Source of the DNA: Rhodospirillales bacterium
GTDB lineage: Bacteria > Pseudomonadota > Alphaproteobacteria > Acetobacterales > Acetobacteraceae
NCBI GenBank assembly: GCA_025352565.1
Contig: JANXTF010000128.1
Span: forward strand, 1-64,000
Length of the DNA stretch: 64,000 nucleotides
Direction of reading: 5' to 3'
Of this stretch, positions 7,286 through 10,450 are shown in pieces. Made by a program: the position numbers and the translations under genes. The notes beneath the pieces are model-generated. The model was not told the DNA's origin, made no database searches, and saw only the letters and a program-made list of their open reading frames with translations. Each line of letters opens with the position of its first letter. Positions within the stretch are counted from its first letter, which is position 1.

Positions 7286-8164
7286 ATGTTCAAAGGGTCG
7301 CTCGTCGCCCTGCTTACGCCCATGCGCCCGGATGGCAGCGTGGACGAAAAGGCCTTCGCGGCATTCGTGGACTGGCAGATCCGCGAAGGCACGCAAGGCA
7401 TCGTGCCGGTCGGCACCACGGGCGAAAGTCCCACGCTGAACCATGCCGAGCACAAGCGCGTGGTCGAGGTCGCGGTCGAGGTCTCGGCCGGGCGCGTCCC
7501 CGTCATCGCGGGCGCCGGTTCCAACAGCACGGCCGAGGCCATCGAGTTCGCCCGCCACGCCAAATCCGTCGGCGCCGACGCAACCCTCGTGGTCGCGCCC
7601 TACTACAACAAGCCCACCCAGGAGGGTCTGTTCCTGCACTTCACCGCCATCGCCGACGCGGCCGACATTCCCATGATCGTGTACAATATTCCCTCGCGCA
7701 GCGTGGTCGATATCAGTACCGAGACCATGGCGCGGCTGGCCAAACATCCCAACATCGTGGGCGTGAAGGACAGCACCGCCAACCTCGCCCGCCCGCTGCA
7801 CACGCGGCGTGAATGCGGCGTGGATTTCGTCCAGCTTTCCGGCGAGGACCACACGGCGCTGGCGTTCCTGGCGGCCGGCGGCGTGGGCTGCATCAGCGTG
7901 ACCGCCAACATCGCCCCCCGCCTGCTGCGGGAGATGCACACGGCCTGGCACGACGGCCGCCATGCCGAGGCCATGGCGATCCAGGATCGCCTCGTGCCGC
8001 TGCATGACGCATTGTTCGCTGAAACCAGCCCCGCGCCAGTCAAGTTCGGCGCCAGCCTGCTCGGCCATAGTACCGACTTTGTGCGTCTGCCGCTCGCCGC
8101 CTGTTCCAAGCCCGGCCGCGCGCGCGTGCGCGCCGCGATGACGGAAGTGGGGCTGCTCAACTGA
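7286..8164 (+). CDS. dapA: 4-hydroxy-tetrahydrodipicolinate synthase
   Basis: Condenses pyruvate with aspartate semialdehyde in lysine and diaminopimelate synthesis. 292 residues forming a TIM barrel. The key residues are in place: Thr-Thr in GTTGESPT (44-45), the proton-relay Tyr133 in VYNIPSRS and the Schiff-base Lys161 in VGVKDSTAN, the same numbering as the E. coli enzyme. A 102-base gap precedes it, so it probably has its own promoter. smpB follows after 7 bases, a pairing common in alphaproteobacteria. Confidence 0.95.
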   Translation: MFKGSLVALLTPMRPDGSVDEKAFAAFVDWQIREGTQGIVPVGTTGESPTLNHAEHKRVVEVAVEVSAGRVPVIAGAGSNSTAEAIEFARHAKSVGADATLVVAPYYNKPTQEGLFLHFTAIADAADIPMIVYNIPSRSVVDISTETMARLAKHPNIVGVKDSTANLARPLHTRRECGVDFVQLSGEDHTALAFLAAGGVGCISVTANIAPRLLREMHTAWHDGRHAEAMAIQDRLVPLHDALFAETSPAPVKFGASLLGHSTDFVRLPLAACSKPGRARVRAAMTEVGLLN

Positions 8165-8171
8165 GCGGATC

Positions 8172-8657
8172 ATGGCCGAGACCAAGAAGAAATCGGGGCT
8201 GATCTCCCACGGCATCGCGTCGCAGAACCGCCGCGCGCGCTTCGACTACACGATCAAGCAGACGGTCGAGGCCGGCATCGTACTGAAGGGCCCCGAGGTG
8301 AAATCCCTCCGCCTGGGGCGCGCGAGTCTCGCCGAGGCATGGGCCGGAGAGCGGGAAGGGGAGTTGTTCCTGTTCAACGCCTACATCCCCGAATACCAGG
8401 GCGGCCTGCTGTCGCGCTTCGAGCCGCGCGCGCCGCGCAAGCTGCTGGTCAAGCGCAAGGAGATGGGCACCCTGCTCGGCGCCGTCGCGCGCGATGGCGC
8501 CACGCTGGTGCCGCTGCAGATCCACTTCAACGACAAGGGCCTGGCCAAGGTTCTTCTGGGTCTCGGCGAGGGTCGCAAGAACGTCGACAAGCGCCACGCC
8601 ATCGCCGCGCGCGACTGGCAGCGCGACAAGGCGCGGCTGATGCGGGCAAAGGGGTGA
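8172..8657 (+). CDS. smpB: SsrA-binding protein SmpB
   Basis: Binds tmRNA and brings it to stalled ribosomes for trans-translation. 161 residues with the conserved SHGIASQNRRARFDY opening, the GIVLKGPEVKSLR segment, AYIPEY and a basic C-terminal tail (IAARDWQRDKARLMR), which occupies the empty mRNA channel. Length is normal. It lies directly behind dapA. No tmRNA gene is visible in the window. Confidence 0.96.
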   Translation: MAETKKKSGLISHGIASQNRRARFDYTIKQTVEAGIVLKGPEVKSLRLGRASLAEAWAGEREGELFLFNAYIPEYQGGLLSRFEPRAPRKLLVKRKEMGTLLGAVARDGATLVPLQIHFNDKGLAKVLLGLGEGRKNVDKRHAIAARDWQRDKARLMRAKG

Positions 8658-8658
8658 C

Positions 8659-9534
8659 GTGCGGTCGCGCCGCCGCCTGATCGGTGCGGCGATCGCCTTA
8701 TTGTCGCTCGCGAGCTGCGGCACGACACGCGCCGTGATCGGGCGGGCGCAGGCCCTGGTCGGCGGCCCGTCGGATATCGTGCGCATTCCTGACCAGGATC
8801 AATACGGCCAGCCCTTCGCGCTGGAAGCCCGGCTGTGCCGCCCGCGCGGCGCCTCGCCCGCGCCCGTGGCGGTGCTGAACCACGGGCCGGCCAGCTGGGC
8901 ACTCCTCGCCGATATGCGCCCGCTCGCCTGCACCGACCCGGCGGTCGCGTGGTTCACCGCCCAGGGCTACATCGTGCTGCTCCCGATGCGGCGCGGCTTC
9001 GGGGCGAGCGGCGGCGACTGGGCAGAAAGTCCCGGACCCTGCGCCAGCCCCGACTACGCCGCCGCCGCCCAGGCCGGCGCCCACGACATCGCGCTCGCGG
9101 TCGGTTTCGCCAGGACGCTTCCCGGCCTGCGCCCCGACCCGCCCGTGGTCGTCGGCTGGGACAGCGGCGCGCTCGCGACCCTGGCCTACGCCGCCGCCGC
9201 CTTGCGCGGCACCAAGGCGGTCGCCATGGCGCCGGCCATCGGCACTTTGGGCGGGGCAGGGGCCGGGCATGTCTGCCGCCCCGACCTGCTGGTCGAGGCC
9301 GCCGGCCGGCTCGGCGCCACCGCCCGCATCGCGACGCTTTGGGTGGTCGCGGGCAATGACGGCTTCATCCCGCCCGAACTCGCCACCGACATGGCCGCCG
9401 CCTTCCGCGCCGCCGGCGGCAAGGCCGCGCTGGAGCTGCCCGAGACCTCGCTGCCAGAAGGCCACGACCTGTTCTTCGCCCCAGCCGGCGTGGCAATCTG
9501 GGGGCCGATCGTCCAGCGATTCCTGCGCTCGTGA
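8659..9534 (+). CDS. Secreted alpha/beta-hydrolase-like lipoprotein with Asp at the nucleophile position
   Basis: 291 residues. A lipobox-like LASC (about residues 17-20) follows a hydrophobic N-terminus, so it is probably a periplasmic lipoprotein. It is a clear paralogue of the next gene, and both have the dienelactone-hydrolase-like fold. The nucleophile elbow here reads GWDSG at 166-170 where the paralogue has GQSSG, putting Asp168 where a Ser is expected. The acid (Asp234 in GNDGFIP) and His269 (EGHDLFF) are present. Asp nucleophiles occur in haloalkane dehalogenases and epoxide hydrolases, so the protein may have a changed reaction or be inactive. GTG start at 8659, one base after the smpB stop. 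Confidence 0.75.
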   Translation: MRSRRRLIGAAIALLSLASCGTTRAVIGRAQALVGGPSDIVRIPDQDQYGQPFALEARLCRPRGASPAPVAVLNHGPASWALLADMRPLACTDPAVAWFTAQGYIVLLPMRRGFGASGGDWAESPGPCASPDYAAAAQAGAHDIALAVGFARTLPGLRPDPPVVVGWDSGALATLAYAAAALRGTKAVAMAPAIGTLGGAGAGHVCRPDLLVEAAGRLGATARIATLWVVAGNDGFIPPELATDMAAAFRAAGGKAALELPETSLPEGHDLFFAPAGVAIWGPIVQRFLRS

Positions 9535-10358
9535 AGCCGGGCGCGCTGCTGCTCGGGTTGCTCGTGCTCGCGATGCCGGCGCGGGCCGCCGAGACCGCGC
9601 TTCGCATCCCCTTCACCGACGAGCAGGGCCACCACGGCGAACTCGCTTCACGCCTGTGCCGACCGCCCGGCCCCGGACCCTTCGCGCTCGTGGTCATCAA
9701 CCACGGCGCGCCCCGCGCGCGAGGCGACCTCCCGCGCCTCGTCCCCGCATCCTGCCAGTCGGTTCCCGCCAAGTGGTTCCTGACGCGCGGCACCGCCGTT
9801 TTGTTCGCATTGCGGCGCGGCTTCGGCACTAGCACCGGCACCATGGCGAGCAGCGGCCTGTGCGCCCAGGCCGATTTCGCCGGCGCCGGCCGCGCCGAGG
9901 CGCGCGACGTGGCCGCCATCGTCGCCTTCGGCCGCAATTTGCCCGCCATCCTGCCCGACCGCATCGTCGTCATCGGCCAATCCAGCGGCGGCTTCGCGAC
10001 GCTGGCCTTCGACGCGATGCCGCACCCCCCGGTCTCCGGCATCATCATCATGGCCGGCGGCCGCGGCGAGCGCCCCGGCGAGGATTGCAACTCGGCCCTG
10101 CTGGTCGACGCCGTGGCCGGCTTCGGCGCCATTTCGCGCACCGACATGTTGTGGATTTATGCGCGGCGCGACCCGTCCTTCGGCCCCGCGCTGGCCACCG
10201 AGATGCACCAGGCCTTCACGGCGGCGGGCGGTTCGGCCCGGCTGGAGCAGCCGGATTTCGACGGCCCGAACCCGCACCAGATGCTGTATTCGCCGCTCTG
10301 GGTGAAAATTTGGGCGCCGCTTTTCGACCGCTATCTCGCCGCACGCCCCCGTCGTTAG
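9531..10358 (+). CDS. Secreted alpha/beta hydrolase
   Basis: 275 residues with a Sec signal peptide (MKPGALLLGLLVLAMPARA). Dienelactone-hydrolase-like serine hydrolase: nucleophile elbow GQSSG at 149-153 (Ser151), acid in YARRDPSFG and a His in NPHQM near the C-terminus. It is the tandem paralogue of the upstream gene and overlaps its stop (GTGA), so the two are made together, one with Ser and one with Asp at the active-site elbow. Substrate unknown. The protein would act in the periplasm. Confidence 0.82.
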   Translation: MKPGALLLGLLVLAMPARAAETALRIPFTDEQGHHGELASRLCRPPGPGPFALVVINHGAPRARGDLPRLVPASCQSVPAKWFLTRGTAVLFALRRGFGTSTGTMASSGLCAQADFAGAGRAEARDVAAIVAFGRNLPAILPDRIVVIGQSSGGFATLAFDAMPHPPVSGIIIMAGGRGERPGEDCNSALLVDAVAGFGAISRTDMLWIYARRDPSFGPALATEMHQAFTAAGGSARLEQPDFDGPNPHQMLYSPLWVKIWAPLFDRYLAARPRR

Positions 10359-10366
10359 GAAACCCC

Positions 10367-10450
10367 ATGGCACCCCTCCGCTTCCTCGGCATCTCCGGCA
10401 GCCTGCGCGACATCGCGCTCGATGACGACGATGCCCGCCTCGCCGCCTGA
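10367..10450 (+). pseudogene. Stub of an NAD(P)H-dependent FMN reductase gene
   Basis: A 27-codon frame begins MAPLRFLGISGSLR, the signature opening of NAD(P)H-dependent FMN reductases (phosphate-binding loop GSLR), then continues with 13 unrelated-looking acidic residues and a stop. Family members are about 170-200 residues. It looks like a gene deleted after its first 14 codons, or fused to a short remnant. It sits in the convergent gap before the phosphatase gene at 10505. Confidence 0.6.

Follow-up and report, generated by a model that had tools for sequence, protein, structure and literature searches.

Genes at the Locus

The window analyzed here, a 64,000-nucleotide stretch of DNA from a Rhodospirillales bacterium, carries two genes, called A and B, that lie head to tail on the plus strand downstream of genes that, from their sequences, we take to be dapA and smpB (Table 1). 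The TGA stop codon of A and the GTG start codon of B overlap by four bases. The two products are paralogs: BLASTP aligns them over 255 columns with 41% identity (E 7e-53) and pairs GWDSG in A with GQSSG in B, D234 with D214, and H269 with H249. The open reading frames and this alignment through the elbow, with acid and His present in both proteins, bear out the coordinates, residues, and A/B pairing given in an earlier note on this DNA. At the elbow, A reads GGC TGG GAC AGC GGC and B reads GGC CAA TCC AGC GGC, and a Ser-to-Asp exchange requires at least two base changes. By sequence motifs, the N terminus of A is presumably of the lipoprotein type (LASC, Cys20), and that of B presumably resembles a cleavable signal (AMPARA/AE). 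A protein search of the window's own genome returned A itself and B as the sole family members; the family profile gave further matches there, all of them weak and distant.

Table 1. Features of the locus, with positions in the window
Feature	Position	Strand	Basis and remarks
dapA (dihydrodipicolinate synthase), upstream of smpB	7286..8164	+	ORF; 86% identical in L152
smpB	8172..8657	+	ORF; 1 base between its stop and the start of A; 92.5% identical in L152
Gene A, lipoprotein-type alpha/beta-hydrolase-fold protein, Asp168 at the elbow	8659..9534	+	ORF, 291 aa, GTG start
Gene A nucleophile elbow G166-W167-D168-S169-G170	9154..9168	+	Sequence, alignment column 168, model
Gene A putative catalytic acid, Asp234 codon, after strand beta7 (225-229)	9358..9360	+	Alignment, model
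Gene A putative catalytic base, His269 codon, after strand beta8 (255-259)	9463..9465	+	Alignment, model
Gene B, secreted Ser-type paralog, elbow GQSSG (Ser151), Asp214, His249	9531..10358	+	ORF, 275 aa, GTG start; BLASTP with A; model

The order dapA-smpB-hydrolase recurs in Acetobacteraceae-type genomes, so called after those family loci whose source is named. Sequence homology together with smpB adjacency places A in the secreted hydrolase family of this locus, and both A and its ortholog A' depart from the G-x-S-x-G pattern of that family by carrying Asp at the Ser position. A family gene lies directly downstream of smpB at 38 loci, which seem to represent one genome each. The first such gene specifies Ser at 34 loci, Asp at two (the window and genome G010), and Gly at two (G104 and G307). 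Second or third tandem family genes exist at seven of the 38 loci, one of these being cut by a contig end, and every complete tandem copy outside the window's genus is of the Ser type.

Two side observations concern reading frames. Downstream of B, a short plus-strand ORF (10367-10450) reads MAPLRFLGISGSLRDIALDDDDARLAA and then stops. Its start presumably resembles those of NADPH-dependent FMN reductases, and it may be a gene remnant; among the loci compared, its motif occurs in none except those covering the window. Elsewhere, one family gene (L010, G001:C3:74737-75582) contains an in-frame TAG.

Occurrence of Asp168

The window's genus is represented by two sampled genomes, and both possess the A-B pair. 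The partner genome, G010, is the MAG Rhodospirillales bacterium GL140_3_metabat_233. Locus L152 (contig JANXXW010000281.1), which we take to be the G010 contig because length and gene pair agree, encodes A' and the B counterpart, B'. A' is 59% identical to A, displays the elbow GWDTG, and uses the identical Asp codon. The gene order at L152, namely dapA, smpB, A', B', and then a metallophosphatase-like gene on the opposite strand, matches that of the window. An identical Asp codon and gene order in an independent assembly rule out an orphan, and sequencing error is very unlikely given that at least two base changes are needed and the codon recurs. Because the sister species carries the same exchange, the Ser-to-Asp change in A is real and maintained, and among the sampled genomes it is restricted to one genus.

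Across 171 distinct family sequences, the nucleophile column contains Ser in 164, Gly in three, and Asp in two, with the site uncovered in the remaining two. This set comprises 165 sequences that attained E 1e-10 against a family profile (158 with Ser, two with Asp, three with Gly, two uncovered) and six later additions, all with Ser. Asp occurs in A and A' alone. Among the matches listed (profile E to 1e-10), no further Asp member appeared in the family, order, class, and genus samples or in the named genomes. Those samples, which overlap, yielded family matches in 57 of 299 same-family genomes, 73 of 395 genomes of the order, 87 of 385 of the class (by profile), and 85 of 397 in a second same-family draw. 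A plasmid search produced six records, with a best identity of 35%. The literature searched, with subscription journals outside its coverage, held no report of the A/B family or of a Ser-to-Asp exchange within it.

The earlier note had placed Asp168 at the nucleophile position and proposed aligning homologs of A to learn whether it is conserved. That alignment finds Asp168 in the single available ortholog, so it is not unique to the window. In the model of A, strand 163-167 ends just before this residue and helix 169-177 starts just after it, so that it occupies precisely the turn joining the two, which rules out an elbow elsewhere and accords with the alpha/beta-hydrolase layout. Ser169 is Thr in A' and is therefore no conserved shifted nucleophile. 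The placement thus stands, with its reach limited to one genus.

Fold and Family Membership

AlphaFold2 models built with 29 sequences reached pLDDT 89.9 and pTM 0.85 for A and pLDDT 91.7 and pTM 0.90 for B. The alpha/beta-hydrolase fold of A is recovered in structural comparison, with all 1000 of 1000 compared PDB chains at Z of at least 8. The top Foldseek match, at E 2.3e-10, is the dienelactone hydrolase 1din. In VIA-align, 7qjm, 7d78, and 6lzh score Z 21-22, superposing 206-218 residues at rmsd 2.7-3.2. With respect to sequence families, A scores 17.9 bits against PF02129 (Peptidase_S15), below the 23-bit gathering score, and B scores 26.4, above it; A reaches no Pfam gathering score, and B reaches that of PF02129 only. 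PF01738 (dienelactone hydrolase) has no listed match to A, and 16 of 28 family members match it with E up to 0.01. The earlier description of A as dienelactone-hydrolase-like therefore holds for its fold, but A lies below every Pfam gathering score.

Epoxide hydrolases insert a cap domain after strand beta6, and the cap supplies the Tyr or His that opens the ring. Haloalkane dehalogenases combine a cap with a Trp directly after the Asp, which serves as halide ligand. In A, only 17 residues separate strand 186-190 (beta6) from helix 208-221, so A has no cap domain, and residues 191-207 contain no Tyr. A thus shares with epoxide hydrolases the Asp at the nucleophile position and not the cap. The residue after the Asp is Ser169 in A and Thr in A'. 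Neither epoxide hydrolases nor haloalkane dehalogenases appeared among the 50 structure matches listed, a result compatible with some structural similarity. Because it has no cap and no Trp after the nucleophile, A falls outside both Asp-nucleophile families. By the features tested, A is neither an epoxide hydrolase nor a haloalkane dehalogenase, and its likeness to them is convergence at one residue.

Residues Changed and Kept

Across 96 reference sequences, 51 columns show at least 85% conservation, and the references themselves keep a median of 96% and a minimum of 81% of them. A keeps 41, A' 43, B 41, and B' 46. Eight columns (146, 168, 193, 194, 196, 225, 237, and 267) are altered in both A and A'. 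At half of these, the two proteins have the same new residue (L146, D168, T196, and E267); at 193, 194, 225, and 237, their replacements differ from each other, as expected if the constraint of an old substrate had been released. Trp167, just before the Asp, is common to A and A', and no more than 3% of other sequences have it. Neither protein has lost Asp234, His269, Asn233, or the oxyanion-loop His-Gly. Two positions beyond the acid, A has Phe and A' has Thr; a residue at this site is reported to help keep the catalytic His in place (PMC7034887).

B is itself an unusual family member. Both B proteins (window 9531-10358; L152:3762-4610) have lost the conserved equivalent of Glu123, and the otherwise invariant Asn before the acid is replaced, by Arg in the window's B and by Ser in B'. 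The window's B further has Pro in place of the Gly before His249. A split active site, in which A and B would have complementary losses, was considered and rejected: the two A proteins have eight lost columns in common and the two B proteins four, with 196 in both sets, which is too few to show complementarity.

Other nucleophile losses exist in the family. In L063 and L098 (genomes G104 and G307), which adjoin smpB, the nucleophile is Gly (GVGSG) and the acid and His are gone, a second and independent loss of the triad at this locus. In a tandem pair elsewhere (L119/L146, G842:C2:26144-28110), one copy combines a Gly nucleophile with Ala for His, and the other has an intact Ser.

Tree and Selection

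The tree was built from 100 rows, the first 100 of the 143 remaining after removal of rows shorter than 230 aa or more than 85% identical to another. SH-aLRT is 99 for the A pair and 98 for the B pair. A joins three Ser-type genes (L006, L011, and L014) with 96, and the set uniting A, B, and these sisters has 93, below the star line. These groupings place the Asp change most simply on the branch to the A pair and make B an old paralog, not a fresh copy.

Between the window and L152, Nei-Gojobori estimates, which are rough at dS near 1, give identity 0.588, dS 1.09, and omega 0.314 for A; identity 0.546 and omega 0.359 for B; identity 0.860 and omega 0.111 for dapA; and identity 0.925 and omega 0.065 for smpB. 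A and B thus evolve much faster than their upstream neighbors. For 45 Ser-type pairs at the smpB locus, the median omega is 0.36 (range 0.11-0.61); these pairs were restricted to smpB identity of at least 0.88, the all-pairs set being mostly saturated, and omit both L022, which is almost identical to L015, and loci that repeat a genome already represented. Ser-type pairs of similar divergence have omega 0.29 (L011-L014) and 0.31 (L018-L027). Because its omega resembles that of Ser-type pairs at the same locus, A is constrained like Ser-type proteins. The Gly pair L063-L098 has no triad, yet its omega is 0.26. Constraint is therefore no proof of catalysis, and the dapA-smpB locus can keep non-catalytic versions.

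What A May Do

The Ser-to-Asp exchange either inactivated an enzyme that then took on another role or brought a new chemistry. An Asp that attacks a carboxylic ester would form an anhydride, so A has probably lost the esterase reaction of its ancestors. Our preferred reading, which we favor slightly and with roughly even confidence, is that A is a non-catalytic protein: inactive, ligand-binding, or a partner. A is the positional relative of the secreted Ser-type, esterase-like protein found directly downstream of dapA-smpB in many Acetobacteraceae-type genomes. Ser would have become Asp in the genus lineage after A split from its Ser-type sister genes, accompanied by a Gln-to-Trp change just before it and by loosening of loops conserved in the Ser family. 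A has stayed under purifying selection next to the Ser-type copy B, and it would have given up ester hydrolysis and would work without an acyl-enzyme. As an outer-membrane-type lipoprotein, it may use its pocket to bind a ligand or partner, perhaps the substrate of B or the B protein. The earlier suggestion that the pair could combine an active enzyme with an altered partner fits this arrangement, which remains putative.

Several observations argue for a non-catalytic A. Asp168 is present in both genomes of the genus and Ser in sisters L006, L011, and L014; the family-conserved loops and the residue two after the acid (Phe or Thr) diverge between A and A'; and the cap and second catalytic group of known Asp-nucleophile enzymes are missing. 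Omega for A (0.31) and B (0.36) lies near the Ser-type median, and the triad-less L063/L098 proteins are likewise constrained. DPP6, in which Asp also replaces Ser, is inactive, and reinstating the Ser does not revive it (PMC4350108). Against it, both species retain the acid, the His, Asn233, and the oxyanion His-Gly, whereas the other nucleophile-loss lineages (L063/L098 and the second G842 copy) lost the His, and L063/L098 the acid too. Moreover, the new residue in both species is Asp, the one residue other than Ser and Cys that is known to act as nucleophile in this fold. Epoxide hydrolases use it in this way (PMC5340866).

These same retentions keep alive, as a serious if rather doubtful candidate, an active enzyme in which Asp168 attacks an alkylating substrate (an epoxide, a halide, or an alkyl carbon of a lactone) and the His269-Asp234 dyad activates water to hydrolyze the resulting Asp ester. 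Epoxide hydrolases and haloalkane dehalogenases work in this manner, but here the mechanism would have arisen separately, in a dienelactone-hydrolase-like family that has no cap. Asp nucleophiles are known to form ester intermediates with epoxides and halides, and a designed precedent exists: an esterase acquired weak epoxide hydrolase activity after a loop exchange (PMC5340866 and PMC3962183 for the former, PMC3962183 for the latter). The shared new residues (L146, D168, T196, and E267, plus W167), preservation of Asp168, Asp234, His269, and the oxyanion-loop His-Gly in both species, purifying selection (omega 0.31), and His loss in the other two lineages are as such an enzyme would predict. 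However, the stretch between the end of beta6 (190) and the next helix (208) offers no cap and hence no cap tyrosines, Ser or Thr and not Trp follows the nucleophile, the family-conserved loops differ between A and A', and DPP6 demonstrates that Asp at this site need not mean activity (PMC4350108). With only two sequences carrying Asp, the preserved dyad has little statistical weight for or against either reading.

We consider improbable a catalyst without a covalent intermediate, in which Asp168 would act with His269 as general base or acid, a role that Ser plays in hydroxynitrile lyases. Conservation of the Asp and the His, together with purifying selection, agrees with it, and hydroxynitrile lyases of this fold indeed work without a covalent intermediate (PMC3962183), but neither family resemblance nor genomic context suggests a lyase or decarboxylase substrate. 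More improbable still, and disfavored, is gene decay, with A a degenerating duplicate whose Asp arose by neutral chance. Several residues conserved in the family are missing from A and several from B, and both genes change far more quickly than dapA and smpB, as decay would have it; yet the frame is intact in two species at 59% identity with the same Asp codon and gene order, and the omega of 0.31 is inside the Ser-type range.

To our knowledge, switches among Ser, Cys, and Asp nucleophiles in known alpha/beta-hydrolase families are old. The switch in A is young enough that its Ser-type sisters, a tandem Ser paralog, and the same chromosomal position are available for comparison. A thus offers a tractable test of whether an Asp at the nucleophile site creates new chemistry or marks lost catalysis.

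Comparison with Known Systems

The closest comparison is with the Ser-type hydrolases linked to dapA-smpB. They share with A the fold, four conserved Cys residues, the RRG and NHG motifs, the acid, the His, and the gene neighborhood. They differ in their Ser elbow, GQSxGGW, where A has GWD, and in a conserved GGRG loop and Phe237, both lost in A. Among the closest solved folds are dienelactone hydrolase (1din) and feruloyl esterases, which employ a Cys or Ser nucleophile and are approximately 14-23% identical to A among the matches listed. Epoxide hydrolases and haloalkane dehalogenases have the Asp at the nucleophile position, the His, and the acid, as A does. They possess in addition a cap with substrate-activating residues and usually a Trp after the Asp; A has neither.

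DPP6 and DPP10, inactive relatives of DPP4, are unlike A in being membrane proteins of eukaryotes, in having a beta-propeller, and in their known ion-channel partners. DPP6 nonetheless resembles A in that its nucleophile Ser was naturally replaced by Asp within an alpha/beta-hydrolase fold, the likeness being at the level of the fold, and restoring the Ser gave no activity (PMC4350108). In the active relative DPP4, Trp precedes the Ser (GWSYGG; PMC4350108), as Trp precedes the Asp in A.
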